Shown here: one piece after another, positions 1 to 63,972 of the stretch
Layout of the letters: each line of letters begins with the position of its first letter
How positions within the stretch are numbered: position 1 is the first letter of the stretch
NCBI RefSeq assembly: GCF_963675165.1
Contig: NC_087377.1
Location: 8,883,122-8,947,121 of the forward strand
Reading direction: 5' to 3'
DNA length: 64,000 nt
Origin: Halichondria panicea
Taxonomy: Eukaryota; Porifera; Demospongiae; Suberitida; Halichondriidae
Position numbers and translations under genes: made by a program
Notes under the pieces: model-generated
Database searches by the model: none
Told to the model about the DNA's origin: nothing
Seen by the model: the letters and a program-made list of their open reading frames with translations, nothing else

Positions 1-1265
1 ACATTTGGAGTCATCCAGTAGTGTAAATTAACCTCTATCGAAGGAAATCAGCATGCAGGCAACGGCAGTGCTATATAGTTTGTCAATAATTACATACACA
101 TGCAGTATTCTATAAGCTTGCTTAAGCATTAGAGTGTTATAAGAGGGAGCTCAATGAAACAGAAATGTGATGGCTATACAGACGATGATCTTAGGGGAGG
201 ATCTGCAGAGGGGTTAAAGTTCACAATGACTGCTGCTTCTGGCAGTGTACAGCTCTTTTCTTACTCGTACATAGGCTTTAGTGCAAGACTATAATTATAA
301 CTCATATAAGTTGATGCTCCAAACAATTCTGAGGAGACTGCAACAGCCAAACTTAACTAAAAAAATAAGCTTACAAATCAAAATCCAAGAGAACGTGCCT
401 ATAAAAGATTTTGCAACCATTTAAGCAGTATAAGCTGGAATACACAGACACAAACACATAATGAATATACATACTATGAAATATTTTCGAGGAAAAGGCT
501 ATATATAGCGCATTTCCTTGTTTGTATTATAATTATTGCTGTGTACATTGAATAAGGATAGCGGTTTGACATACTTATATGACAATGTTTGTACATAGCA
601 GGACGATATCATTTTTGCATGTATAGTAAACCTCTCATTTGCTCCTGAGGATACCATAATAATACCAAGAGTGTATGAAGAGGAGTATGTGCAAATTCCA
701 TTCTACATCTAGGACTGAATTCGGCGCTAACACTAGTCTTGTAGTTGTGTAAACTGTTAGCCATGAATAAAATTAAATGTGGGCTGGAGGTACAAACCAC
801 ACGTGTGTATGCTGATATCATTTTTAACTAATAAACCACTACACCTACGCACCCACTTAAGATGCGGTCTGGTAGTGCCGTGTTATGACATACTTGTACC
901 GAAACCTGGTTTACACTACAACTGCTACAGTTGGATACTCCTCTTCATACACTTCTATAATACTAATAGCTTATAAGGGTATGCACTTAGCTATTCTCAG
1001 ACTAAGCAAAATTTAGACATTCTACCCCCGCGAAATGTTATTTTTAGACGCGGAACTTTGCCAGTATAATAATTATATTGGATTCTATTATTTTATGCTT
1101 CTGATATAAATTTTGCTGGGTATGTAAGATAGTTGCATGCATGCATGCCCTTTTCTCGCTTATATATATAAGCCTTGTGTTCTTATGTTTGACCACACCT
1201 TGGTAGTTTTGATTGTAACCATTATTTGACCAACACCTAGATAGGACATTACGTTGTAATATTAC
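1..1265. other. Left-edge region without a convincing gene
   Basis: I see no supported exon here, although the minus-strand exon chain at 1266-1722 must continue into it or end in it. A loose inverted pair (a segment near 655-685 carrying GTGTATGAAGAGGAGTAT, and its reverse complement near 935-957) suggests a small foldback repeat. The rest is AT-rich DNA with many TGCATGCA runs. Confidence 0.4.
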
Positions 1266-1722
1266 CTGTTCTGAGCATGGCAGTTGCTCAATATCAGAAT
1301 TATTGGAAGTAGAATAGCTGCTAGTACTTCTCTCACATTCGAGGGAGTGATACTATATTTATTGATGAAAGAACATGAGATACTGGCATGGCTTGCTATT
1401 TGTTTAGCACTAACCTCCATGAAGCAGCGTGGAAGCCGTACTCTACAGGAGAAACACGCTTCAATTGGGCACACATTTGCAATGCTTGCCTATGAAATTT
1501 AAATGTTATAGTATAAAGTTCGATAAAATACACGATAGAAAACCGAACCTGAGAGATGTATGGACAATCTGATGTATGTTCCTGGCTGCCATCTTCCACA
1601 TCTGTTTTATACAAATTAATTGTTTTGGTTCAGTGAACTATTGGCTTACCATCAAGTTCATCTTTTCGGTAGTCAGCTTGGCACACATCATCGTAAAGCT
1701 TTTTGATTGTATCCCTGCAGCT
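1266..1722 (-). CDS. Partial multi-exon gene of unknown function (four exons, both ends missing)
   Basis: Four short exons can be chained on the minus strand: 1650-1722, 1549-1601, 1415-1489 and 1266-1352. Each has an AG acceptor and a GT donor (gtaagc, gttcgg, gttagt, gtaata), and their phases agree (0 to 1, 1 to 0, 0 to 0, 0 to 0) with no stop. The peptide begins SCRDTIKKLYDDVC, passes through an acidic stretch (ELDDVEDGSQEHTSD), then a Cys-rich part (CPIEACFSC) and a Ser/Thr-rich part. I recognise no domain. The neighbouring minus-strand gene at 2315-3681 has an unused phase-0 donor-like GAG|GTACAG just before its stop, so these exons could be an alternative 3' end of that gene; this is not shown. 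The start and the end of the gene are not located. The evidence is splice-site and phase agreement only. Confidence 0.45.
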
Positions 1723-2188
1723 CTATGAAAATTACCATGGTGCAGTTACAACTTATACTCCATGCACCTTTAAATAGCTCTCGGCCCACTTTCACACTCT
1801 TTATATACCAACGCTTCAAATGGATTGCATTTAGTGAGTAACCTTAGATACCACAAAAAAAAAACCAACGGACTACTATAACCCGCTGGCCGCGGCACGA
1901 CCTTGGGTTAACGACTACTATAACCGCTGGCCGCGGCCATGGTTAATTACCTTATCACTGAGCAGTTTTACGTTTCACCCATGTGAAAATCAGTAGCATT
2001 ATATAAACATGGAAACCTAGCAGAAACTACCTGAACTATATATACAGAAGAAAATAAGATTTGAATGCTAGGCTAACGGCAGTGGTGGATCAGCATGCAT
2101 GCATGGTCAGACATGCACTATAAGACTATAATTATAGCCGAGTTAGCCTAAAATGTTATACAAATAAGGTTCCAATCAAAAGATATCA

Positions 2189-2351
2189 ACATTTAAGTAC
2201 AACTACTCACACAATTGTGGTAATCTATACTCTCTAAACTGGATGCACTGTACCTCATCACTGTAAACATAATTATTAACATTTAAGTACAACTACTCAC
2301 ACAATTGTGGTAATCTACTCTCTAAGCTGGATGCACTGTACCTCATCACTG
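2189..2351. repeat. Tandem duplication of ~75 bases covering the gene's stop codon
   Basis: The stretch at 2189-2263 recurs almost unchanged at 2279-2351 (offset 90 at the left end, 88 at the right). The right copy holds the C-terminal codons and the TAG stop of the minus-strand gene at 2315-3681. The left copy lies just past it. Confidence 0.85.
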
Positions 2352-3681
2352 AGAAGCTCACAGCAACAGTAGGGCACCTGACCGTCATATTCAAGAAGGA
2401 TGATGTTGTTGGCCAACAGTTCTTGCTTTTGAACATTATCTAGGGTAGGGTCAAATTCTTCATCAGCACGCAAACTAATCATCTCAAAGCATATTTCCAC
2501 ACAGCCTTCCCTGACAGAGGTAACTCGAAGGTTAATATGTGGAGGCAGTTTAAGAATTGTTTTCACTACCTTCTTGAAATGGTAAAGGCGATCAATTCTA
2601 AACTTGAGATACTCTTCTTCAACTTTAATCTTTAGCTTTTTGTGCACTGAATAGGTGCTTCCATTGGCATCTTGCAGAATGGTAGGTACAAGAACGACTC
2701 GGTGTTGAGCATACTCCTTGAAACTAGCCTCGTATCTTTCAGCTGCGGCTTCGGCAGAACGTCTGAGTTCATTTTCTGTACCTGATAACTTCAAGATACT
2801 AAGCCGATGTAACAAAATGTCGTAATTTATGAAGTTAGCTCCTTCTCGGAATTGTCTGTACAATTTCTCAAAACTTGATTGTTCATGCTCAGTAAGATCT
2901 AGAGCATCTTTTATGAGACTTTCAATATCAGGAATTGATTTGGCATACATGCGCACAGCTACTATAAATGCCATAAACTCCTTCTCGACACTCTGAGTTT
3001 GTTCTTTAAGCTCCATATTCAGCTGCTTCTTGTCGTATTTGCTAGATTTCAGATCAACTTCTGGAAAGTTTCGGCTATCAGAATGGCGGTTGACTAGGCA
3101 ATCGGGTGGAGGGTGGAGAATGTGTGAGAAATCGCAACTACCACATGGACATCTGCAGGGAACAGCATTGCCAATATCATCCAAGGCAATTACGGTGTCA
3201 ATATCTGATCCTTCTGTGCAAATGGCAGGGATACCTGAATAAATACAACAGACAATGATTGCTCGCTTTTTGCTGTATAGTATATTTCCCAAATAAATGT
3301 GCCTAATAGTTATGCACCAAACAGCCCAGGTGATCTCGACCCACATTGTTGATGATTCCCGGCGTACATTATACTTCCCAGTTCAGGATATACAGAATAC
3401 TTGAGATCGAAACGAATATATATGCAAATGCTCGTCTAGTATATAATACATGTTGCTGAAGAACTTGAGGCTTTGAATACGATAATAAAATTATGGTCTA
3501 ACTCACCATTATTTCTAAAAATGGCATGTCCATGCTATAATTATATAGGCAGTACAGAACAATGACATACGCACATGCACATGCACATTTATATGCATGC
3601 CTGAGTATTGTGTAATGAACATACCACTGGGTAGGGTACTTTCAACACCGCTAGGATAAGAAGGGTTTGAGCTGGATCCAC
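2315..3681 (-). CDS. Conserved protein of unknown function, two 3' exons seen
   Basis: Two exons join cleanly on the minus strand: 3625-3681 (57 bases; acceptor tttttag, donor gtatgt) and 2315-3234 (920 bases; acceptor ttattcag), both in phase 1. They give about 325 residues ending at a TAG. The start is not found; the 5' exons should lie above 3690. The N-terminal part is Ser/Pro-rich (PSYPSGVESTLPSG). Next comes a small Cys cluster (CRCPCGSC), then a long helical, charged middle that looks alpha-helical or coiled (EQTQSVEKEFMAFI through RRSAEAAAERYEASFKEY). The C-terminal block (LPPHINLRVTSVREGCVEI) has a spacing I associate with C-terminal regions of some sponge and cnidarian NLR- or death-domain-type proteins, but that link is from memory and weak. 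No catalytic motif, membrane segment or signal peptide is visible. An AG just upstream of 3234 fits better than the in-frame ATG at 3346 as the exon start. Confidence 0.6.
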
Positions 3682-3689
3682 CTAAAAAT

Positions 3690-4990
3690 TGAATAGCTAT
3701 CATTATACTCTCAAAGTATATGCATTTTCAGAAAAAAAATTTTTTTTAATAGATTCATAAATGCGTTTTATTATTAGCGCGTACTTAATTTAGCGTTAAT
3801 TACAAATTAAAATTTTGCTGAAATTAGTACCCGTTTATAATAATAATAGTAACTAGTGTTCAAGCTGGCGCTGTGCTAATGCCTCTCGCCATGTTTTTGC
3901 TTTCGCTCAAAAGTGTTATATTAGTTTCTATAATGAATTTTATATTAAAGTTAGCTTATCTATATAAAGTCACTGAGAAGAAAAGACTTATTTACATGCA
4001 TCTATTGTTGTTATTATTTATTGTATTATGTGGCTTAACAGGACCTCAAGAAAGATTCTTCCAGGATCTGTAGTTCAGTGTATATAATATCTAAGACCTG
4101 TGTACATGCATATTGTTATCTATATTGTTATATATGGTAGTGTTTTGTGGCTTACCAGGCCCTCAAGACAAAGATGATTCTGCCAGGAGGATCTGGATCT
4201 GGATCTTGGATATTATTTTCTCACACATGGGGAATGAGCGCACATGTGCATTACATCCACAGGAATAATAAGATTATAATTAAAGGGTGTGTCCAATTTC
4301 ACAAAATTAATAGCTACTGCATGCTAGCTAGCTATAGCTAGCTGTTTTAACAGATATTTTCTGAGTATTATAGCTAACATAAAGCTAGCGCTTTAGTGCA
4401 AGGCTAACTCATATGTTGAATAGCAAGTTTGTGAGGACAGATGATGCTTCTGCAACAAATGCTCTCGTCTGATTTCTTGTTTCCACGCTTTTTTGTGGTT
4501 CTTTGTGGTTCCCCTGGCCAATCCTAGCAATTTTTCACATTGCAAATGTTTTTCTAGTCGGATAATTATAGTAACATTAAGGTAATGCAAGTGTGTTCAT
4601 CAATTTTTAAAAAAGCTATACTAATGTAGCTTTATGTTGTATAAATTTGACACCTCCATCAAGGCATCAGCACCTGCAGTGATTTCATTATTTTTTGTAC
4701 TCATGCCCTTTTATCAACCTTTATGTGAAATACTGCGCATGGGCACAAGAGCTAGCTACACTCAGCATAGCCTCGATTACAGGCCGACCTCGAAACTCGG
4801 ATTGGCAGCCTGGTATACATTGTATGCGCAAGCATGTGCGTACATTACCCCAAAAAGGGGATAATCCGTATATTTTGTATTCTGAAGTTGTAGTCCGTGT
4901 TACATCATCACATAGAAGTATTGTGCAAAGATGCCAGCTTTAGCTTACGCTCTTTATTGTGTCAAGCCAAGTCTCAAGAGCTTAACGACA
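3690..4990. other. Intergenic, repeat remnants
   Basis: No supported gene. Two related pieces (about 4030-4075 and 4148-4200) share a CCTCAAGA...CCAGGA.GATCTG core and look like an old duplication. A half-element resembling later 'GGCCAATCCTAGCAA' repeats lies at 4480-4580. A GCCTCGATTACAGGCCG repeat half is at 4769-4800. Confidence 0.4.
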
Positions 4991-5323
4991 CCTTATACAC
5001 TGTAATATACTCGCAAGCTGTCACTGTTGCACAGCGAACAGTAGACTGGTCAAACTTCGTATAGAGACTCGTGCAACGTTTGCTACGATATATTTGTGGC
5101 AACTCAAGTGGCTAGACCGCATGCGGTTGCCACAAGATCATTGATAGTGATCGACGTAGCACTGGAAAATTCTAGGTAGCACATGCAGTATACTGACCTC
5201 ACGAAAACCGCAGCCACTTAGAATCTTATCTGATTATGCAACACGAGTCTCTACACAGAGTTTGACCAGTCTACTGTTCGCTGTGCTAACAGTGACGGCT
5301 TGCGAGTCCAAACACTGTAAGGC
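4989..5323. mobile_element. Foldback element with ~75-base arms
   Basis: The left arm (about 5009-5080) and the right arm (about 5237-5310) are near-perfect reverse complements; both contain GCGAACAGTAGACTGGTCAA or its complement. A weaker match extends outward to about 4989 and 5323. A diverged relative lies at about 58735-59325. It encodes no protein. Confidence 0.8.
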
Positions 5324-5460
5324 TACAGATGTTATAGGAAAGGCATGATGTGTTCCTGTGGGTCCCCTGTAGGGGTTGGTAGATTATGCTCGCGATATTA
5401 CCTATTATGCTATTCTTTTATGCTTGAGTTAACAGCTTTTCAAATCGGCTCACATTATTA

Positions 5461-5753
5461 CAGTAGAACCTCGATTATCCGGAACCTCGATTATCCGGCT
5501 TGGCAGTTTTCTTTTTAATCAGATTACATAATTCAGAAAATGGGCGTGTCCCTAAAATGCGCATGCTCGTTGCAGCTGTTACCATGGAGACATGCCTGCT
5601 TTTCTTTTGCGCATGCGCAGACAACATGTGGCACTGCTGTTCATCAATAAAGTGGGTGGATCAAGGCGTGGTTTATCTATTCGATTATCCGGCATATTCA
5701 CTTATCCGGCCTGCTTCTGGAACCAAGGTGTCCGGATAATCGAGGTTCTACTG
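5461..5753. mobile_element. Pogo/Tc1-like MITE, family A
   Basis: A 293-base element bounded by TA. Its terminal inverted repeats of about 24 bases start CAGTAGAACCTCGATTATCC. A close copy is at 36234-36542. The CAG start and TA duplication are typical of Tc1/mariner-pogo non-autonomous elements. The internal open frames are not convincing genes. Confidence 0.85.
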
Positions 5754-48098: not shown

Positions 48099-49286
48099 TC
48101 AAATATCTTGGAAGTTGGCATAGTTGTCGAAGGAGTCCAAGTAGACCAGAATAGCATCAAACAAATCCTTGTAGTTGTCCTGTGAGGGGGAGTGGCACAT
48201 TAATGCTCATGCATGCAAGTGTGTGGTGGATAATACATTGTTCGTTATATGCTATAATTATATATACCCACACACTGCACAAACACTGACTGTGATTGTA
48301 CAATATACATTGCAAATAGCACCATGCAATCAACAGTATACAGCTAGCCACTACTATTTGAGGCCTGACTTGAAGCTTTGTAATTGTGGAAAAACAACCG
48401 GCAAGCCTCCTCGATGTAAGAGCAGATGAACTCACGACTGAGGGTACTGCCCCTGGCTTGTGGACCCTGAGAGCCTTGACCACCTGGAACACATCCACCA
48501 CTCCCTCTGTCTTGCAACGGCCAATGGTAGTAGCTACAGAGCAGTACATACCAGAGCGGGTCGCAGTGTCACTGGATAGAGAGAGGTTATAATTATAATG
48601 TCCATATAAGGTTACAGCATGCACTTGTACGTACTTGCAATGAACCAGTATAGTGTTGTTTCCAGTTCTCCTTTGAACCTTTATAACCTCTTCATTGACG
48701 TCAGTTACAGTCTTGAAGTTCTCACACTTTCCACTGCTCTTCCAGTTAGTGATGTGGAACTGAGTTAATTGACAGGCCTTTTGGGTCTGCATGGAGGCAA
48801 CAAGGATAAAGAGAGGTTCAAAGAGATGCATGACGGGTACCTTTTTATTAAGCATGCTCAGTTGCCTCATAACGAACCCAGTGTTGACTTCCTCCTCCAA
48901 GTTATTGATGGTGAACTCACCGAAGGAGGTGACATTGCCACTCTCTGGCCAGTACTGGGAGCATGCTTCCTATATATTATACATACATACATGCACTCAA
49001 CAGGGAGGACCTCTGTGAAGACCATCTCTTACCTTCCCATTCTCACTGAGTGGAGTCAACATCACAACAGCCGCACACTTCCTGTCATAGATCACTTTCC
49101 AGAAGTTACGCACAGTTGAGTCCAGTGGATTCTGGGCAATGATGTATGCCTGCTGGTGCTTGTAGCCCTGGAGGGAGGGAGGGGAGCATAAGAGTACAGG
49201 GCTCTAGTAGTTGACACTTACATGAGCAAACACAGCATGAATGTAGTCAGGTTGCTCTCCCTTCAGAATCACACGACTGGGCTCAG
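48099..49286 (-). other. PTP domain D2 (degenerate) of the receptor phosphatase
   Basis: Exons 20-25 encode the second phosphatase domain. The P-loop reads HCNDTATRSG: the Cys (about residue 1356) and Arg (about 1362) of C-x5-R are kept but the Ala-Gly of the classical loop is lost. The WPD position reads NWKS (about 1320-1323), so the general acid is missing. By family knowledge such D2 domains are inactive or weak and act in regulation or binding. Confidence 0.85.
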
Positions 49287-52200
49287 CTATTGTTGGGGAA
49301 CAGTGAATGGATATAATGTACACCGTTAGCAGAAATCCTTACGTGGCAGGTAGTCCATGTTCCTGTTCCTGGCAGCATTCTTAACAGCAATAAGACTTCG
49401 AACTTCTTTAGGATTTGGAGTAACCTGTTCCAGAATTTGGAACTGGTATTGGAATTCTGAGGTGGTTTTTCCCGGGGGTACTAATGACATCTTTTGTATC
49501 TGTCTGCGCAGATCTCCAGCACCGATCTGAGTGTCTCCACACGTCATTGACTCCAGGATAGCATCGTGGATGAACACATACTGATCCTATAGGGGGTAAT
49601 GCATGAGCATGCTCAGTAGAATAAAAATGGCAGCAATCATTAGCGTCGAAAACAGCAAGGTGCAGAGGTGAGGTCACCATTGTTTACTCTATTGAGCATG
49701 CTCAGACATAGTATAGCATGGCCACACCCCTCTTATCTTAGCAACCATTAGCCTCAATTCCAGGCCGATTAAATTAATCGGCCTGGATTTGAGGCTAAGC
49801 AACCACTTGAGGTCCATAGCAACTGTATAGTGTTTTGTAGTGTTTTGTACTGTTGAATCTTAGCGCTCTTTTGTACTGTCATTCTTACCGCTCCAGTTCA
49901 CAATTGCAGTGCTTGCAAGTTGACAAGCTGCTCTTATTCTGAGCTGAGGCTCTGAGCCCTTTTAATTATTGCATGCATATCTACATGTACAAAACCAAGA
50001 AGTTAATCATGACAGCTAGCTGTAGCATCTTTCTTTTTTATAGGTGGCATTGCCACCTACTTGATCTAGCTAGCACCATAGATTTATCTATGCTGGTCTA
50101 TCTGTGAAGAAAAAACGTGTACAAACAAGTGTAAAGAACATTTGTGAAAAATAGTGAGAAGTAGGGTTGGAAGAGCAGCTCAAACCATGAAAGAAACACC
50201 CATTAGATAGACACAAAACGTACTGGTATCTCAGGACAAACTAACTCTCCAATACCTAACATTTATAATGCGCAGAAAAAAGTTTACAAACAAGTGCAAA
50301 AAACGTTTTGTGAAAAAATGAGGAAGAGTAGTGTTGGAAGAGCATGCGCACTGAAGTAACAAAAGCTCGAAAACAAGATTGTGGGTTGGTATAGTCTTTG
50401 CATGCTCCAACTAGTTGCGGGTGGGGCTCGATCTTTGCGATCTTTGACAGTTGGGTCCAGCACTACTTCGAATTTTAGTGGGGGTCATCTGTAGAGTCTC
50501 AAATTTAATATACACACCATGTGCTTTGGTTTTCGATCATTCAAATGCGTTATTCTTATATCGCAACACATGCAAGTTGATGGTCAAATATAGGGGATCG
50601 AGGGCTTCACATAAAGAAATAGGTGTAACTCGAAGTAGTGCTGGACCCACTGTTAAAGATCACAAAAATTGAGCCCCACCCCCAACTAGTTGGAGCATGC
50701 AAAGACTATACCAACCCACAATCTTGTTACTTCGATGCGCATGCTCTTCCAACCCTATACTCTTCCCCTTTTTGCACTTGTGATAGAAGCAATACTATAT
50801 ATAGAATTAGAGTAGATATATACCCACCTGTGTTTGTACAAGCTTCATCCTCTGGTTGCGAGCTTTAACAATGGTCCCGGAAATATCGATGAGACCATCG
50901 ACTGAGATCTGATCGAGAACATTATCAATGGCAATATAAGTGCCTGTGCGTCCCACACCAGCACTGCAGTGGATCAGAATAGGACCTTTTGATGGCTTGT
51001 GTTGGGACTGGACCCGACGATGGAACCCAAGAATGGGCGTGGCATAGTCAGGCACACCGTGATCAGGCCAGGCAGTGAAATGGAATAGCTTGACTCTCAG
51101 AACACGGAGATCACCATCCAACTAGAGGCAGGGGAACAATAATCCCACTCCTCCCCACTCTCTTATAATTATGGTATTGCATGCAGTTGAGTAATAATTA
51201 TATACACACTCACTGAAGCCTCCAGTGTCCTGACAGTGTAATCAGCCAGTATTTGCTGATCTGTAATGGCCACTGTGAATGGTCCAAACTGCTTCTTCCC
51301 AGAATCTGGCCAGTATTGTTCGCACTTTATCTTGTTGTTCTCCTCGAGGTTGGTGAGCATGACTATTATGGGTGGTCTCTCCTGCCACATGAGACGCCAA
51401 AAGTCCACCAGAGTTCGTGGTAGCGGTCCTATATGAGGGGAGGGTGAAAACATAATAAAGACTGAAATTTACACTGAGCAATATTTCGATTCACTCATGC
51501 TTAAATCTGCAGGGAAAGCAACCTAATCCAGAAACTGGCTGGACACAAATATGAATATTTTAATGAATGAATATTAAAAGTTTTACTATTACCGGTACAC
51601 ATTTTACCACTGACTGACTACAGCTAGTCTATATTCATATTAATTAAAAGTGAGTACGGGATTTTTCGAACAGCACTTTCTCCCAGTACAACAGGACATT
51701 CTGCACAAGGTTTCAAAGCAACAATAATACTTCCGATTTGTGATTGCTTTCATGTGGCAGATGACCTCTCAGGCTGCATATACGTACTTTTGTTACCTAT
51801 TATAGACACAATTTTGCCATCTTATGAAATGGATGTAGCTGTGACATGACTATTTAGATCTACGGAGAGTACTATTACACACCTCCTTCAACTCTTCAAC
51901 TCTCCAATTTGATCTCAGGTTAAGGTATGCTAGTTTATATGTACTGGCTAGACCTATACCGTAGACCAGGAGTGCATGAATGTATATTGAAGTGAGTGGG
52001 TGTCAGATACTCCTATTCATGCACTCCTGCGTAGACCTATAGACTATATACTGTAGGCATATTATAGGCTCATACAACACTGCAGACTATACAAGGCAGT
52101 GTTGCCATTTTATCACTGACTCACGAATTCTAAAAATTCGTAAGCAATAATAGCAATTATGCGTTTATTCCAGTCCTGTCTTCTCTTCTTACCTTAAGGT

Positions 52201-55200
52201 GACATATTTTCACAGGTAGATTTGTTTGTGTTTTCACTGTTTAGCTCATTTTGCTGGTATTAAATTCTGCTATTCATTAGCGTTTCTAATTACAGTAGAA
52301 CCTCGCTAATCCGAATAGAGCCGGACCAGACCCCATCCGAATACATAAAATTTCTGGAACAGATGTCATTGAATACATTAACGAAGACACTTTTGTACAT
52401 GTGTATTACGATATTACTGTGCATGGCCAGAAGGGAAGCTGCTAGCTACTTTTATATCAACTTTCTCTCCAATACAGTGAGTCTTGTGAGCTCTCTCTTC
52501 GTTTTCTTTGCAGTGGCCGTTGTCAGAGCAAGGATTGAGCAGTTTATTAATAAGATTATTGCTGATTCAGCAAGATCCAGATTAGCGAGGTTCTACTGCA
52601 TGTACTCGCAAGTGGTTTTAATGAGATTCATTGCATTTTCCAATTATCTGCAAGTAAAAATTTTTGCAATTTTACTATAATTCATATAGAAATTCACAGA
52701 AATTAATACTCGCGAAAATATGTCACCTGCTTCTTTATGTTTCAGTTCCACTATCTATCTTTCATTATAACGGTACTGAGGCTAGAAAATATTTGCAATG
52801 TAAAGGATTGGCCGGGGGAACCACAAAAAAGCGTGGAAACAATATGTCCTGTGAGAGCATAACTCCAATCTGTTATAACGTTCACATGTATATGTACAGC
52901 TAGTGTTGATACATTATCGTATATACTATATGTATAGTGGGTAATCTTTGTGGGGTAAAAAATTCGCTATTTTCGTGGGCAAGCTGACCTCGACGAACAT
53001 TTTACTCACAAAAACATAGGCGTAGTTTACCGGAACGCATGCAATGCAGTGCACGTAAGGAAGCAAATAAAATTTTGACTTATAAAAATCACCGCTGTTT
53101 TTAAGTTCAACGAATTTTTTACCACATGAAAATTACCCGCTATACGGTACATGCATTAGATCACAATTGACACCAGGTCACCATGCATAGATGGACTGCA
53201 TGTGTGTTAATCCACGCTTTTAGGCTCTCAGCCAATAATTATCCTAGCAACTTTTTACAGAATTGCAAATGTTTTTCTATCCAGATCACTTTATGGTTTC
53301 AACTGTGCCCACAACAAGGTAAACAATGACTCCTCGATGCCCATACAAGGTAAGGGTAGACACTTAATTAATTAGTAACCAAGGACCCACCTTGTGTTGC
53401 TATAAACTTTTTAGGCTTCTTGTACCCCTGAGAATAGAAATAATTTACATGAGCTGGTGGACCAGTATTGCGTGTGCCAGTATAGACAGTTCATATACAT
53501 GTATATTGCAGAGGCGTAGGAAATGCAGGGGCTGCAGCGGCCATAACCGGTGCACTTCTTGAGCTATTATTATCTTGCAAATATTACAAGGGCCAAAAAT
53601 CCGCCCCCGTTGGCAATCATTGTGCACATGTGCAGTATTCAGTGTAGACATGGTCTCTAGTCTAGATTACAACCTTAACCATCCAAGATCTACCCTCTAT
53701 TGCCTGCTCACTTGGGCTTCCTCACAATTCAAGGCACACTCACGTCTACATAGCAGGCATTGATGTAGTCACTCTGGCAGTCCTCTTGGCTAGGGATGGG
53801 GTCTAGGATAATGAGGTTGTCATCATCTGTAGGAAACCAGTGTGAAAACACACACACGAATACACTTGCACAGTGCTAATAATGACCTCTTTGCTGGCCA
53901 TCCGCCAGTACTGCATGTACATACATGTAGAACTGCTAACTCTCATGATATACACTCACAGACAGCAATGTTGCCAAATCTGTTGTTGAGTCTGTTCTCA
54001 GGAGTCACTGAAATAATCACTGGATGACCCCTCTCCCCACTGTCCAGATTCTGAGAGTGTGTGTGCATGTATATGTGCGTGTGGTGTGTGTGTCCGTGTC
54101 CGTGTCTGGTCCCATTACAATAGCACGACTGTGCTATCAACCGTGTGTGTGTAAAGTATAGTCACCTTTACCACTAATGATTGTGCAGGCTGTCCAATTG
54201 CTAGTAGACACACTCTCACGCCCACACACACAGCCAGTATAACATTACCTTGTAAAGATCTTTGAACTTCTTATTGCTGCTGGCATGGAGGTCAGCCACA
54301 TACGCTCCAAACTCTGTCACAGGTATGGGGGCGTAGTCCACCCCCTCCATCCCCTCACTAGCCTTACCACTCTCACTCATCACTGTTACCTTGACGAGCT
54401 GTTGCGTTGTTGACCCTGAGGCTCCAGTAACCACCAGTTTATACACACCTACAGAGTACGAGTAAACATTCATTTCAATTTTCATTATGCACAGTAAACA
54501 ATCACTGTTTTCTTATCAGAACCTCTGGTTATGTATACATTGCAATTGTACATACACTAAAGGCTGTAGCTAGCCTAAACATCTTATGACATTGAAAGTA
54601 TATAGCGTGTGCTCACCAGTGGCAGGTGCGTTATGTTATTAAAACAGTACATTCCCATGACCAGTACACAATCTTGAGTATCAGTATACATGTATATACT
54701 CACCAGCATGCTTAGCCTCCACACTAGAGAAGGATACTCCACCGTCCTGGTCCAGTTCTGTGGCATAGTCTGCAGTCACCTTCCTACCATCGTGGTACCA
54801 GGTGAGACTGGGTGGAGGGTGACCTCCCACCTTCACCCTCAGATACACCTCCTCCCCCTCCGTTGCATGAGTATCACTAGGAAACTCTACTATACTAGGC
54901 TCTGTATAGGACACAACAATATTACAAAAATAGTAAAAGTGGTTTTTCGTACCGTTGACTTTCTCAATGGTGGCTTTACTGTCTTGTCTGTTGCTCTTCT
55001 TGAAGGATGCTTGATAGGGGGTGGGGCGAGGGGGAGATGCATGGCGTGGGGAGGGGCCGTACTTGGTCTGGTTGCCATGAAGTTTCCTGTAGACAAAGCA
55101 ACACATTATTACATGCACAAATAATTATTTTTATGATAGTCTTACCTCCAGAAATAGACCCCAACAATGATACCCACCACAATGACAGCGGCTAGAATGA

Positions 55201-57804
55201 GTAACACGATGACTACACCTGCTACCACACCTCCTGTGTTGCTAGCATCAGGGCCTGTGGGGAGGTTGCTAGTACATGGTCAAAAAATTGGTCACAATAC
55301 AACTGAACCCACTTACCTAACTGCACACAGAAAGTTGTGTTAACTCCAGTGCTGTCAGGAATCACACAGCAGTAGGAGCCAGTGGGGCCTGACACAGACC
55401 CTCGACGATGGAGTCTGAGTGCACTTGTATTTCTAACACTGTACAGCAGATCTGTGTCTGAAATAGTAATGTCCAGATTTCTTATAATAGCTGTTCCATT
55501 CGGTAGTAGCCAATCTCCTAATCCATTGGCACTATTGGGGTTATCTTGTCCTGTACAACAAATAGTTGAGTCAGTTTTGCAAGTCAATGCTGTCTCAGTG
55601 GTATCTCCAATGGTGTCTATGGAAACCTGTGAGTTATTAGTTGCAAATTTGGTGGTTCCCACGGAGACGTAGACAGGAGATACTGTAGGTGGGGGATTGT
55701 AAGTGCATTAGTGTACATTGTACTAGCTTACATTGACAGGTTGGAGCTAACCCACTCCACACTCCATCACTCCCACAAGTCCTAGTGCTGCCTCCATTGA
55801 GAGTGTAGCCAGTGTCACAGGTGCAGGTGGCCACAGTGTCCACTGGTCTCAGACTAGCAGTCCCCATATTGTAAAGAATCATTCCATTGGTCAGAGCAGG
55901 GAGGTCGGAACAGGTGGTGGGTGATTTAGTGGGTCCTGTGTTCACTGTATCAAAAAAAGTGAAGCAGCTGTTAAGATGTAGTAGAACTAACATTGACAGG
56001 TAGGAGCTGTTCCACTCCAGGTCCCATTCTGACAAACTCTGACACTCCTTCCACCTCCAATGAGAGTGTAGCCATTGTCACAAGTGAACATAGCAATAGT
56101 ATTATTAGGTCTGTTGTCAGCAAGTCCACCAGCGTAGGTAATGCCTCCATTCATTAGTGGTGGTAAATCAGAACAAGGTCCTGAAATAATTATACACTCA
56201 ACAAATACAGTACTAGTCGATTTACTCACGCTGACAAATTGGACCTGACCCACTCCAGCTCCCACTCACACAGACCCTAGTGGTGTCCCCTCCAGTGAGA
56301 GTGTAGCCAGTGTTGCAGAAGTATGTAGCGTTAGAGAGGAAAAGTCTGTTATTAGTGGATCCATCACTATAGGTAATCATCCCGTTGGTCAGTGGGGGTA
56401 AGTCAGGGCAGTTAGCTGTATGGGAGACGATATGCTCAACAAACAAACAGTACAGAGTCCATTCCACTTACGCTGACAAGTTGGAGCTGACCCATTCCAG
56501 CTCCCTCCAGTCACACAGATCCTGTTAGTGTCTCCTCCAGTGAGAGTATAGCCAGTGTTGCAGGAGTGCACAGCACTAGAGAGGAAAGGTTTGATGCCAA
56601 TGGATGTAGCACTGTACATAATCGTCCCGTTGGTCAGTGGGGGTAAGTCAGGGCAGTTAGCTGTATGGGAGACAGTATACACTCAACAACAAACAGTTAC
56701 ATGCAGAGTTCATTCCACTTACACAGACACACTGGAGCAAACCCAGTCCACACTCTATGTATACCACTCCTACAAGTCCTGGTGGTACCTCCACCAATAG
56801 TGTAGCCAGGGTTACAGGTGTAGGTGGCCACAGTGTTCACTGGTCTACTGTTATTGGATCCAGCACCACCATAGTCAATATTCCCATTTGTCAGTGAGGG
56901 TAGGTCAGAACACGTCACTATGGGAACAGGTACACACTCAACGTACACAATATTACAAATTCAGTCATTCCTTACTCTCACACACTGGAGTTGTTGTTGA
57001 GCTCCACTTTCCATCACTCCCACAAGTCCTCACTGGCACTCCAACCAGAGTGTAGGGAAGGAAGCAGGCGTAACTGGCTGTAGCACCCACTGATCTGTTG
57101 TTAGTGGATCCACCAGTATAGGTTATGCTTCCATTAGCAATGTCCGGGAAATTATCAGAACATGTGACTGACATAGGTGCAACTGTAGGGGGGGAATAAA
57201 GGTTATGCAATGGAATAGGAGAGTTGTGATGGTTTCATAAACTCCTGAGGTGAACACATGCATATATACTGGCTGGCAATGATAATAATTTGATCCACTC
57301 ACTCAGGTTAGCACAGATGGTCATATCTCCCAGTGTAGTTGGTACAGTACAACAGTAGGACCCGGTTGGAGTGAGGGGATTGTTAGCCTGTCTACGAGCC
57401 AGTCTGATGACCTGAGCAGCATTCCTCACAATGTAGAACTGCTGTGCAGCGACTGCATCATTGCCCATTATCATACTCCCATCAGGATACGTCCACTGTC
57501 CTAGTGTTCCATTACCATTGTTGTCAGACACATTTCTACAGCAGGTAGTGAGGTCACTGTGACAGGTGAGAAAAGGAAGACCACCATCAGCATTCTCTCC
57601 AATAGTAGTGATCAAGATATAAGTATTGTTAGTGGTGATGCGACCAGATCCCAGTGCCAGGTAGACTGCATGGAATAAAACGCAATGTCAGATTACAAGC
57701 CAGTACACATCTAATCAACTATAATAACCTTGCTGTTCCCCTGCCAGTACAGCGAGCCCAGAGAGCAGAACCACACACACTAGTCCACACAGCATGGAGG
57801 TCAT
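48099..57804 (-). CDS. Receptor-type protein tyrosine phosphatase, sushi/Ig ectodomain, 25 exons
   Basis: Exons (minus strand, 5' to 3'): 57729-57804, 57303-57665, 56976-57182, 56723-56917, 56472-56660, 56230-56415, 55992-56180, 55732-55944, 55317-55682, 55146-55254, 54953-55086, 54704-54901, 54249-54448, 53960-54050, 53744-53826, 53391-53427, 51214-51428, 50828-51121, 49343-49586, 49222-49286, 49033-49167, 48841-48969, 48635-48786, 48436-48571, 48099-48179. All junctions are GT-AG and in phase, giving 1428 residues. The ATG precedes a signal peptide (MTSMLCGLVCVVLLSGLAVL). Order: signal 1-22, Ig-like 26-147, six sushi modules 147-540, Ig-like 540-661, membrane segment ~670-695, proline-rich basic linker to ~742, Ig fold ~743-835, PTP D1 to ~1180, PTP D2 to the end (SFDNYANFQ). 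D1 should remove phosphate from phosphotyrosine at the plasma membrane. The longest intron (51429-53390) holds a MITE-like element; the next (49587-50827) holds a foldback. Confidence 0.93.
49748..49798. repeat. GCCTCGATT-family palindrome, minimal copy
   Basis: A 51-base palindrome with a single mismatch: TTAGCCTCAATTCCAGGCCG and its complement around ATTAAATTAAT. It lies inside the receptor phosphatase intron 18. Confidence 0.9.
50291..50783. mobile_element. Foldback element in receptor phosphatase intron 18
   Basis: The arms of roughly 150-190 bases (50291-50480 and 50618-50783) pair over GTTGGAAGAGCATGCGC, AACTAGTTG and TGGGTCCAGCACTACTTCGA. A partial direct copy of the left arm lies at about 50110-50200. 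Non-coding. Confidence 0.8.
52293..52598. mobile_element. Pogo-like MITE variant nested in a larger repeat
   Basis: The ends are CAGTAGAACCTCGCTAATCC and its complement, preceded by TA. The interior differs from family A and happens to keep a frame open from 52363 (LLYMCITILLCMARREAA) past the element's end, which I do not accept as a gene. It sits between GGTGACATATTTTC (about 52198) and its complement (about 52715), the ends of an older element whose right half recurs at 58326-58417. Confidence 0.7.
52917..53148. mobile_element. MITE family C copy in receptor phosphatase intron 16
   Basis: The left end is blurred (TATAGTGGGTAATC), the right end reads AAATTACCCGCTATACGGTA, with GTGGGGTAAAAAATTCGC and its partner inside. 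Confidence 0.6.
54249..54901 (-). other. Cysteine-less I-set Ig domain on the predicted cytoplasmic side
   Basis: Exons 12 and 13 encode an I-set-like fold: EGEEVYLRVKVGG, then LTWYHDGRKV with the core Trp, then VEAKHAGVYKLVVTG. The two canonical disulfide cysteines are replaced (Val in LRVKV, Leu in YKL). Its position after the only membrane segment and before D1 puts it inside the cell. Titin- and MLCK-type intracellular Ig domains likewise do without the disulfide. Confidence 0.8.
55317..57665 (-). other. Ectodomain: Ig-like, six sushi (CCP) modules, Ig-like
   Basis: Each sushi module is a single exon in phase 1-1 (exons 3-8), with the typical C..LP.L.NG, Y.C..GYTL.GG and W.G..P.C pattern. 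The two Ig-like exons (2 and 9) share a V-Y-V/L-S/A-x-G start, a TT/IC-C pair (DLTTCC, DSTICC) and GSYCC near the end, so they are homologous to each other. The symmetrical phases make module shuffling easy. Confidence 0.88.
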
Positions 57805-58483: not shown

Positions 58484-60577
58484 CATATTCGCTAAGATAT
58501 CCTTATAGTTGTCTTGTGAGGGGGAGTGGAACCTCAATACCATTACACTAACTATATAGCTACACATTGACTGTCTGTGGTGTGTTATGGTAGATTATAT
58601 AAACTATATATACACTGAAAATAATAACAATCAACAATACAGCTCCTACTAGCTGATCGACTTAAAGCATTCACAATCTCTTGTGTTGGGGGAAACAACC
58701 TGGTACAGGCCCTACTAGGCTAGACTCACGAGCCGTCACCTTTGCACGTCAAAAATTAGACTGTTAAAACTATGTGCTGCAATGCTTGCCACTAAATGAT
58801 GTGGAAACTCAAGTGGCTAGACCGCATGCAGTTACCACAAAATAATTAAATAGTGACGTTGAATGCATACCACCATATAGGCATAGCACACTCTGGGCAT
58901 AGTATGCAAGTTGTCAACTTGAGTAGCTATATAGCAATAGTGTGAAAAGAAGGCATTCAATCTAGTACACGTAGCGAGCGAGCAGAATTCATAATATCGT
59001 GGGCCGATAAATGTGCATTTGCATGAAGCTCTTTTTTTTAGCACTTCATGCAAATTCATTCGCCTACGTGGTGGAATCAGCTGTTTTGCTGTTGCATGCC
59101 CTCTCTTCTTTACGCCCTGGGCTAATAGCACGTACTGGCACTAGAATACCTTTTGTGTAGCTAGTTTTGTGGTAGTCTAAGTCTAAGTATCACGTGCAGT
59201 AGACTGACGTCACGAAAACCACAGCCACTTCGAGTCTTATCGGATATGTGGACTGTACTTTGACCAGTCTACTTTCCGCTGTGCAAAAGTGACGACTGGC
59301 AAGTCTATACTACTATAGGCAAGGTCTGGCTCTTGTAATGGTACAAGCCTCCCACTATGTGAGCAGCAGATGAACTCACGACTGAGGGTACTGCCCCTGG
59401 CTTGTGGACCCTGAGAGCCTTGACCACCTGCAACACATCCACCACTCCCTCTGTCTTGCAACAATCGATGGTAGTAGCTACAGAGCAGTACATACCAGAG
59501 CGGGTCGCAGTGTCACTGGATAGGGGAGGTTATTTATATAAATTATTATTCAGAGAGCTATTCAATTATGCATCCATTAGATTTTAATTTGAACACAAAA
59601 TTAATTACAGGCTCTCAAAAAATAGCTACCAAATCGGCTGAAGTCTACTATAGGTTACAGCACTTGTACGTACTTGGAATGGATCAATATATATACAGGC
59701 TTGTTTCCCATCCTTCTTTGAACCTTTATAACCTCTTCATTGACGTCAGTTACAGTCTTGAAGTTCTCACACTTTCCACTGCTCTTCCAGTTAGTGATGT
59801 GGAACTGAGTCAATTGATGGGCCCTTTGGAGGCAACAAGGAATAAAAATAGGTTTGAAGGCAACAAAGAGATGCATGATATACTTTTCATTGAGTACGCT
59901 CAGTTGCCTCATAACGAACCCAGCGTTGGTTTCTTCCCCCAAGTTATCGATGGTGAACTCACCAAAGGAGGTGACATTGCCACTCTCTGGCCAGTACTGG
60001 GAGCATTCTTCCTATACACACACACACTCAACAGGCTATTGGAGACCATCTCTTACCTTCCCATTTTCACTGAGTGGAGTCAACATCACAACAGCCACAC
60101 ACTTCCTGTCATAAATCACCTTCCAGAAGTTATACAGCTGAGTCCAATGGATTCTGGACAATGGTGTATGCCTTCTGGTGCTTGTAGCCCTGGAGGGAGG
60201 GAGGGAAGCATGAGAGTATACAATATAGGTCAAGGGCTCTAGTATAGTTGAACACTTGTATGAGCATGCAAACACAAAACAAAACAGTAGTCAGGTTGTT
60301 CTCCCTTCAGAATCACACGACTGGTCTCAGCTATTGTTGGGGACACAGTGGATGGATATAATGTATACACAGTTATAGCAGAAGTCCTTACGTGGCAGGT
60401 AGTCCATGTTCCTGTTCTTGGCAGCATTCTTAACAGCAATAGCACTTTGGGATTTGGAGTAACCTGTTCCAGAATTGGATTAGGTATTAGAATTCTGATT
60501 TCGATGGCTTGTGTTGGGACTGGACCCGACGATGGAACCGAAGAATGGGTGTGCCATAGTCAGGCACACCGTTATCA
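58484..60577 (-). pseudogene. Decayed copy of the receptor phosphatase 3' exons
   Basis: Recognisable remnants of exons 18 (60502-60577, partial), 19 (about 60390-60483, partial), 20 (about 60295-60338), 21 (about 60058-60195), 22 (about 59884-60014), 23 (about 59685-59825), 24 (about 59378-59521) and 25 (about 58484-58508). Disablements: exon 21 has lost two bases where the intact gene reads TVRNF, giving a frameshift and TAA; in exon 23 the D2 Cys codon is TCC (Ser); exon 25 diverges after DNYKD. Intron 18 is deleted, with the exon 18 and 19 fragments almost adjacent. A foldback-type element lies between exon 25 and 24 remnants. No signal, ectodomain or D1 front half is present, so it is a truncated duplicate upstream of the active gene. 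Confidence 0.85.
58735..59325. mobile_element. Relative of the 4989-5323 foldback, inserted in the pseudogene
   Basis: Shares CTCAAGTGGCTAGACCGCATGC and the GCAGTAGACTGACGTCACGAAAACC / GACCAGTCTACTTTCCGCTGTGC arm with the 5 kb element, but is longer and has diverged arms (GTCACCTTTGCACG against GTGCAAAAGTGACG). Confidence 0.65.
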
Positions 60578-61952: not shown

Positions 61953-63972
61953 CTAACTGAACTGCACATGTCCATAAGCGAGGTTTCCCTGAGTACAAGG
62001 GTCAGGTTTAACGATATCTGGGTCCTCGTATATTGCAACTGGTGGTTGTCTCATTTTAGTTTCAGTTTGCAAAGTTACCTTCTCAGACCTCCTCCACTTG
62101 TTCACTGCCAGTACAATAAAGACACCAATGGAGATTGCTAGAGCCAGGGTCAGCAGGAAAGTCACGATTACGGATATAACAGTAGTTTCTGAAAAGCACA
62201 TAATTAAATTAATATGACATTGTAATGTAAAATTACTTTACCTGCACATGATCTAGAACACCACCGTATGCCCATGTTGTTCCACTGACCGTCAACACAT
62301 GTCACCACAGCTGCTCCAGATACTGAGGCAAAAGTTTCGGTACAGCTCAGAGTAGCAGTCGTGAGGTGAGACACGTTGCCGCTAGTGACTTCTCCGTCAA
62401 GCTGGTAGGAAACACCATCTGCCAGGAAAGAAGGAAGGACACTTACAGCGCACCCAGCAATGTCAAGATTAGCATAAGTTCCGATTATAATCCCATTATG
62501 CATCAGAGTTGCACGATAACACAGGTTAGTGGATGAAGCCACGGGTGCACAAGCCGACCTCGGCATCAGTTGTATGGTGGATGTGCTGAAATCTGATGGA
62601 AGCAAGTCTCGACATACACCAGATCCTTCTTCAAACTGGATGACAAAGTTTTCACTTTGCTCAGAGACACAGGTTTGACCGAGAGAGAATGTGAGGCAAT
62701 TCATTGTTTCCAGCGTACTCTCATCAACAATGAACGGGGTAACTATAACAGTGCATGTACATGCAAGATGGGTATCATATTATATAGAGGTTTTCATCAA
62801 ATAAAGAGTTTACCAACAACTCTTTCAGATATTTCCGTGCTTGATCCAGCCGCATTCGTCACAGTCACAGTGAAAGTGTACACATCATTCTTCACTGTGT
62901 CTGTGAGCTGGTAGGATGAATCAGGAACAAACACTGCATTGCCACTGAGACCCCCTTGCTGAAGAAGTAAAGGTTATAGTCGGTGTACCAATTTGGGGAG
63001 GAACTAACTGAACTGTTGGGTTATTGGTGCTCTGAACCTGTGATGTGTATATACGTGCATAATTGGACAGTTACGTAAGAGATCATTCGCTTACGCCTTC
63101 CATCGCACTCCATGATCCACTGATTGGCAGTGATGAATTGGAACAGTCAACGAATCCAGTGGGTTGAGTCAGTACAGGAGCTGAAAATTAGCTACTGTAT
63201 AAGAATACAAACTCTCAGATTGATGTTCTACTCACTTCTTATGTTAAACACCACAGGAACATCAACGCTCCTATTGTCCACTCCTGGACACACAGCACTG
63301 GTAGCCACCACACTGACAGTGTGAGACCCGGTGTAGCTTAATCCAGTCACATTGATGCTGTTGTCAGTGACAACCACTGAGCCACTACCTCCAACCATAC
63401 TGGCAGAAATAGTGAACTCTGTCCCTTACGAAGAAGTTGAATCGTCCGGTAGTTGAGTCGACCACTGAGTACTCCATACTGTCAACAGTTGGAGTGGAAG
63501 GCGGGCCTGTAGTGAGACAAAAAGGATATTGTACCATTTCGCTCATGCATGCATATATAGCAGATATACCGTATACCGTATAGCGGTATATTTCGAGGGT
63601 ATAAACTTTCGTGGAGTAGCAGCCTTTCTGCAGCATTGATGCATGCGATAAAATGTGTGGGTATAAATGTTCGCGGTACATGCTTAATCACTTAATCAGC
63701 GAAAATCGCAAACATTTATACCCTCGAAATATACACGCTCTACAGGGTAGTATCTCACCAATAACTTGTACAGTGAAGTTCCCAGCTTGAGGATCAGATG
63801 TAGAAGCACCAGCATAACAAGTCACCACTGCACCATTCAGTGACTGATCAGCTGATAACACAAGAATAGACATCCTTGTGGGTTGATTCATAGCACTGAC
63901 CATATTAATGGTGAACGTTCCACACAGGGCGTCGGATGGGTTGGTAGAGTGAGTAGCAGTAAGAGAAGATAG
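61953..63972 (-). CDS. Ig/FN3 receptor with ITIM-like tail, 3' part (5' end outside window)
   Basis: Exons on the minus strand: 63759-63972, 63236-63506, 63095-63180, 62814-63037, 62242-62742, 61953-62188. The first encodes an Ig-like piece (TCYAGASTSDPQAGNFTVQV). The next encode FN3-like modules (GPPSTPTVDSMEYSVVDS; SHTVSVVATSAVCPG; PTGFVDCSNSSLPISGSW; NDVYTFTVTVTNAAGSS). A Cys-rich module follows (SVLPSF, SCTETFA, VTCVDGQW) that looks partly sushi-like. The last exon holds the membrane segment (VISVIVTFLLTLALAISIGV), KWRR stop-transfer and a tail with IYEDPD and LAYGHV just before the TAG. Two exons (63236-63506 and 62814-63037) break frame internally and are each exactly one base longer than their splice phases demand, next to GGG and GGGGG. 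Either these are sequence errors or the gene is damaged. Same family as the gene at 31959-35602. A family-C MITE lies in the intron at 63567-63749. Confidence 0.75.
63567..63749. mobile_element. MITE family C copy in a receptor intron
   Basis: ATACCGTATAGCGGTATATT start; the right half carries ACATTTATACCCTCGAAATA with a degenerate terminus. Paired GGTATAAA.(C/T)TTTCG motifs lie inside. It ends about ten bases from the donor of the exon at 63759-63972. Confidence 0.65.

Follow-up and report, generated by a model that had tools for sequence, protein, structure and literature searches.

Receptor tyrosine phosphatases (RPTPs) are the textbook case of an architecture in which immunoglobulin (Ig) modules stand outside the cell and enzymes inside it. 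The LAR-type (R2A) RPTPs are type I proteins with one transmembrane (TM) segment and tandem phosphatase (PTP) domains, a D1 with the active motif followed by a D2, and I-set domains likewise belong to their family toolkit; these features are shared by the gene described here, which lies in a 64,000-nucleotide stretch of DNA from the sponge Halichondria panicea (the whole of the stretch analysed, called the window below). The Ig domains of LAR-type receptors are extracellular and disulfide-bonded, whereas the window gene has an ectodomain of Sushi repeats and its Ig domain is cytosolic and without the cysteine pair. Cytosolic I-set domains occur, as here, in titin, myosin-binding protein C, palladin and myotilin, and our profile matches titin strongly; these proteins are neither receptors nor phosphatases. 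In cytosolic I-set domains the disulfide between strands B and F is dispensable.

Titin, palladin and other cytosolic Ig proteins are anchored to the cytoskeleton, according to the part drawn on here of an account of AjNLR-new, a membrane receptor from the sea cucumber Apostichopus japonicus whose intracellular Ig domain is reported to bind Fidgetin and actin (PMC13133943). Unlike the window gene, AjNLR-new has an extracellular NACHT domain and carries its Ig between two TM segments, and that part of the source mentions no phosphatase (PMC13133943). Fester and FcoR of Botryllus are, like the array genes described below, clustered multigene receptors that combine Sushi and Ig domains, but their Ig domains lie outside the cell, there are three TM segments in fester, and the portion of the source used here mentions no phosphatase domain (PMC12065747). 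In the open-licence literature, at the level of titles and abstract openings among the matches listed, we found no RPTP with an intracellular Ig domain, in agreement with the sequence-only reading of this DNA, which knew of no receptor phosphatase with an Ig domain at this position.

New here is an RPTP family with a disulfide-free Ig domain inside the cell, just before the enzyme; sequence comparisons also indicate that the exon for most of this domain has been copied between dozens of genes, which is likewise new. A large family of this kind represents another wiring of RPTP receptors, and to judge from the homogenisation at exon scale, the genome keeps parts of the cytosolic module uniform while the outside changes.

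Gene structure, topology and the Ig domain

One gene of 25 exons, with GT-AG introns and consistent phases, occupies the minus strand of the window from 57804 to 48099, and rebuilding it from the DNA gave a coding sequence of 4287 bases (1428 amino acids), the length previously proposed. The encoded protein consists, in order, of a signal peptide, six Sushi repeats, one TM segment, a basic linker, an I-set domain, PTP D1 and PTP D2 (Table 1). A Pfam search with the whole protein returned six Sushi stretches and two Y_phosphatase stretches, corresponding to the tandem D1-D2, and the protein has what defines an RPTP: a signal peptide (by eye), one TM segment and a cytosolic PTP with HCX5R and a WPD loop. 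Its ectodomain is not of LAR type, as Pfam searches to E 1 gave Sushi and no FN3 there, and all Ig matches up to the same E value fall at residues 744-831, after the TM segment, with none outside the membrane. D2, to judge from its motifs, is probably inactive. Exon 13 codes for both the end of the Ig domain and the start of D1; the interval 54249-54901 first assigned to the Ig domain does hold its exons, but also takes in an intron and the D1 start.

Table 1. Features of the receptor phosphatase gene, in window positions.
Feature	Positions	Strand	Content
Exon 1	57729..57804	-	Start codon; hydrophobic N-terminus, taken by eye for a signal peptide
Exon 2	57303..57665	-	Cys-rich extracellular domain, resembles exon 9; no Pfam family above cut-off
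Exons 3-8	55732..57182	-	Six Sushi (CCP) repeats
Exon 9	55317..55682	-	Cys-rich extracellular domain; no Pfam family above cut-off
Exon 10	55146..55254	-	Transmembrane segment VVAGVVIVLLILAAVIVVGII
Exon 11	54953..55086	-	Cytosolic linker, basic and proline-rich
Exon 12	54704..54901	-	Ig strands A-E
Exon 13, 5' part	54378..54448	-	Ig strands F-G, about the first 24 codons; boundary approximate
Exon 13, 3' part	54249..54377	-	Short linker and PTP D1 N-terminal helix region
Exons 14-18	50828..54050	-	PTP D1 with WPDHG and HCSAGVGRTG
Exons 19-25	48099..49586	-	PTP D2 with HCNDTATRSG; WKSSG where WPDHG expected

The ectodomain (residues 26-661, 636 amino acids) contains 37 cysteines, and the 45-residue linker after the TM segment contains 10 K/R and 2 D/E. 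We place the Ig domain in the cytosol because it follows a signal peptide, one TM segment and a basic linker and has the PTP domains downstream; the distribution of N-glycosylation sequons (15 in the ectodomain, one in the linker, none in the Ig domain and three in D1-D2) would agree with an intracellular Ig, as a weak pointer.

Sequence profiles support the Ig assignment. I-set matched residues 744-825 of the whole protein at E 4.5e-11 (43.1 bits against a cut-off of 23.7) and Ig_3 matched at E 3.8e-11, also above its cut-off, so that both Pfam families suggested earlier as a check on these exons recognise them; the 99-residue Ig peptide by itself gave an I-set E value of 7.2e-13. PDB matches of this peptide were Robo, titin, DSCAM and sidekick chains, the best PDB match of a profile built from seven representatives was a titin chain (E 1e-57), and all seven aligned representatives matched I-set at E <= 0.001. 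The spliced sequence bears out the description in the sequence-only reading of a domain that has lost both canonical cysteines while keeping the core Trp and the AGVYKL strand: Val occupies the cysteine position in the B strand (YLRVKV), Leu that in the F strand (AGVYKL, once spliced), the core Trp is retained in LTWYHDG, and residues 743-832 contain no cysteine. An Ig fold without a disulfide is the supported prediction from these sequences.

The Cys-rich domains of exons 2 and 9 are related to each other (CC ... W.P.G ... G.YCC) and resemble, by eye, a divergent V-type Ig; relatives of exon 9 recur across many paralogue stretches. Elsewhere in the window, 59344-60577 (minus strand) holds a truncated duplicate of the D1 end and D2 with 83-94% DNA identity to the gene, in which the D1 piece is joined straight to the D2 piece and the matches are split in two exons; it has the look of a pseudogene fragment. 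Parts of a further membrane protein gene lie at 61953-63972, also on the minus strand, with a weak Sushi-like stretch (19 bits against a cut-off of 20.7), a TM segment and a short tyrosine-containing tail, the last two read by eye.

A family of related loci across the genome

Searching the whole genome with the protein of exons 12-13 recovered, besides the window gene itself, close matches on contigs C1 and C4. Our set of 38 loci comprises the window gene, 36 array copies on C1 and C4 (every non-window place matched by a DNA search with exon 12) and a divergent locus, L020, on C3. Chance is excluded, since the domain order recurs at 37 other loci of the genome, and reading frame, splice sites, copies and constraint together rule out a chance match or a pseudogene. 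AG and GT flank exon 12 in all 37 array genes, window gene included, while in L020 the Ig domain and the D1 start lie within one uninterrupted open frame. Twenty loci (the window gene and L001-L019) gave a match to the basic linker exon, which was also seen by eye in L024, L029 and L020, and each of the five genes inspected has both HCSAGVGRTG and WPDHG.

The earlier placement of the Ig domain after the sole membrane segment and directly before D1 carries over to the family: a hydrophobic segment with mean hydropathy of at least 3.26 precedes the Ig exon in 38 of 38 loci. A second membrane segment behind the Ig domain, named in the sequence-only reading as evidence that would speak against this order, did not appear in a hydropathy scan of the window gene from exon 12 through exon 13. 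The same scan, from exon 12 start to exon 13 end, picked up TM-like stretches in five of the 38 loci; in L025, L034, L035 and L036 these are CV-repeat sequence preceding exon 13, and in L021 the stretch starts on the last base of exon 13. We rejected a hidden second TM segment past the Ig domain, reading all five stretches as intronic. Between the TM segment and the Ig exon, L017 has one marginal stretch (hydropathy 2.3), and L021 and L024 have CV-repeat stretches close to the TM segment; we take these extra stretches to be probably intronic as well.

The cysteine pair that would form the B-F disulfide of I-set domains is absent across the 38 loci. Position B lacks Cys in every one of them, carrying Val or Pro (37 by script, L015 by eye), and at position F 34 of 37 array loci have Leu and L020 has Phe. 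Single cysteines occur elsewhere in exon 12 in five loci (L022, L023, L034, L035 and L036) and close to the last Ig strand in L020. The Ig domain is damaged in three of the 38: L032 and L033 miss two residues of strand F, with a stop in exon 9 of L033 as well, and L036 (3100-3300) has lost most of strands F-G from exon 13 and is still open into the D1 start.

Six further RPTP loci of the same genome were read (L038-L043), of which five (L038 and L040-L043) showed no intracellular Ig. Ig and FN3-like domains (the latter by eye) are extracellular in L038, L040 and L041, and the portions read of these loci have no Ig between the TM segment and D1; their eight readable extracellular Ig domains (four, two and two) all have both cysteines by eye, a strict cysteine pattern catching three of the eight. 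The ectodomain of L042 combines Sushi and Ig-like domains and that of L043 Calx-beta-like and FN3-like domains (by eye), and neither locus has an Ig between TM and D1 among the frames of at least 60 residues read. The sixth, L039 (C4:519800-525500; 1-5701), has a TM segment, a linker, an Ig exon and then the D1 start, in that order, and is therefore another intracellular-Ig lineage; its Ig keeps the B cysteine only (LMC), with Val at position F. An intracellular Ig is thus present in at least three divergent lineages (the arrays, L020 and L039), and from the abundance of weaker I-set matches elsewhere in the genome further intracellular Ig domains may exist. PTP sequences as a whole are very greatly expanded in this genome (at least 176 matching pieces, which are exon pieces and not genes); among the matches listed most lie on contig C4, many of them in arrays between 0.33 and 2.6 Mb.

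Homogenisation of exon 12 and selection on the Ig domain

The DNA search with exon 12 matched 37 places, window included, of which 24 contain the whole or nearly the whole exon at 95-100% identity; the other 13 match its last 130 or 157 bases, at the 3' end, with 87-98% identity. Around exon 12, L011 of array A and L024 of array B are 99.6% identical over 240 bases, a tract that runs from 32 bases before the exon to 10 after it, and their adjoining introns gave no alignment at E 1e-5. Comparing the window gene or L011 with L024, pS is 0.00-0.02 in exon 12 and 0.00-0.04 in exons 20, 21 and 24, as against 0.62-0.83 in exons 9, 10, 13 and 14. For L011 against L024 by themselves, synonymous differences per site are 0.00 in exon 12, 0.00-0.03 in exons 20, 21 and 24, 0.11 in exon 22, 0.15-0.39 in exons 15, 17, 18, 19 and 23, 0.62-0.76 in exons 9, 10, 13 and 14, 0.65 in exon 11, 0.78 in exon 16 and 0.81 in exon 25. 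In the stretch covered for E_L029 the D2 exons had no good counterpart, and its D2 values were not used.

When array groups A/C1, B and D/E are compared, synonymous sites in exons 9, 10 and 13 are close to saturated (A resembling C1 in all three exons and D resembling E in exons 10 and 13), and the mean DNA identity of exon 13 between these groups is 50-63%. Because exon 12 is nearly identical while exons 9, 10 and 13 approach saturation, exon-scale gene conversion is indicated. The trees conflict in the same way. The exon 13 tree, built from 36 of 37 array loci after one was left out for its length, shows A, B and D+E as groups, though not C1; in the tree for the 5' portion of exon 12, built from 34 of 37 loci (the matches of the other three were not 66 codons long), D+E is the sole group, and in that of the 3' part A, B and D+E dissolve and the C1 pair alone holds. 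A conflict of this kind has the pattern of gene conversion or copying at the scale of exons, acting on C4 as well as between C1 and C4. Purifying selection at the nucleotide level is a less likely source of the likeness, given that the ends of the identical exon 12 tract vary, that in arrays D and E the tract covers only the 3' part, and that in this part the mean likeness of D+E to A (0.962) exceeds that within D+E (0.946).

The homogenisation is uneven: it takes in the Ig exon and some phosphatase exons, and leaves out ectodomain exon 9 and the TM exon. We rejected the idea that the Ig exon alone is affected, as exons 15, 20, 21, 22 and 24 are low in some pairs and exons 18, 19 and 23 intermediate.

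Selection was gauged by omega from pooled counts with Jukes-Cantor correction, a rough measure, and omega values above 1 for exon 12, which rest on few changes, were discarded. For codons 1-25 of exon 12 omega is 0.12 (D against E), 0.09 (within E) and 0.13 (A against D), and this low omega argues for strands A-B, at least, being part of a working protein domain. The ectodomain exon 9 gave 0.51-0.57 within arrays and 0.23-0.41 between arrays in which it is not saturated, the comparison of A with C1 giving 0.54. Most comparisons of strands F-G (codons 1-24 of exon 13) gave 0.24-0.62, and these strands are thus no more constrained than the ectodomain. Protein-level constraint estimated in this way is strong for strands A-B and moderate for strands F-G.

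Possible roles of the cytosolic Ig domain

On balance we favour the view that the window gene encodes a type I RPTP in which a disulfide-free cytosolic I-set, set between a basic proline-rich linker and D1, acts as a docking domain. The intracellular Ig of AjNLR-new offers a precedent for docking (PMC13133943). The I-set would serve as a docking surface in the manner of the cytosolic I-sets of titin, palladin and myosin-binding protein C and would most likely link the phosphatase to the cytoskeleton or to another common partner, and many receptors with different outsides would thereby reach one shared cytosolic partner, with gene conversion keeping part of their shared cytosolic half alike. 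Several observations weigh against docking: exon 12 can be skipped in frame, constraint on strands F-G is only moderate, the Ig domain is damaged in three of 38 loci, five of the six further RPTPs showed no intracellular Ig, and L039 retains its B cysteine. The homogenisation can also be mechanical, with no need for a shared binding surface, as other exons show it.

The main rival, a realistic though clearly less probable reading, is that the Ig domain is an autoregulatory or dimerisation module that packs on the D1 N-terminal helix region or on a neighbour's Ig and controls access to the active site. In its favour, the linker to D1 is short and a single exon, exon 13, contains both the last part of the Ig domain and the beginning of D1; a homogenised shared half would fit the pairing of different receptors; and regulation of RPTPs by wedge and by clustering is discussed, with the wedge model called controversial, in the part drawn on of one source (PMC7959691). 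Against this, the stretch between Ig and helix varies, with three residues missing in L009, L012 and L014, and exon 13, which codes for strands F-G and the helix, drops to the between-group identities given above; with this variation and divergence no conserved Ig-D1 interface is evident. Of protein binding and D1 autoregulation as roles of the Ig domain, we would prefer binding.

It is improbable that the Ig domain is only a rigid spacer, holding D1 at a set distance from the membrane without a specific partner. The damaged domains in three loci, the moderate constraint on strands F-G and the related RPTPs that appear to manage without an intracellular Ig would all suit a spacer, but the omega of 0.09-0.13 on codons 1-25 of exon 12 and the occurrence of the domain in at least three divergent lineages speak against it.

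A more far-reaching version of docking, which we regard as a long shot, would make these receptors a recognition system whose outsides vary while the inside is shared, the Ig domain being a pairing or docking code kept alike by gene conversion across at least 37 receptors on two contigs. If true, receptors with different ligands could pair with one another or compete for a single partner; self/non-self recognition would be one such setting.

That the mature protein lacks the Ig domain through exon skipping, or has another topology, is very improbable: the gene is known here from DNA alone and skipping exon 12 by itself (198 bases, phase 1-1) keeps the frame, but the frame is lost if exon 13 (200 bases) is left out, whether alone or along with exon 12 (398 bases for the two), the Ig domain and D1 start of L020 share a single open frame, the exon 12 splice sites are retained in every array gene, and the domain is constrained at the protein level.
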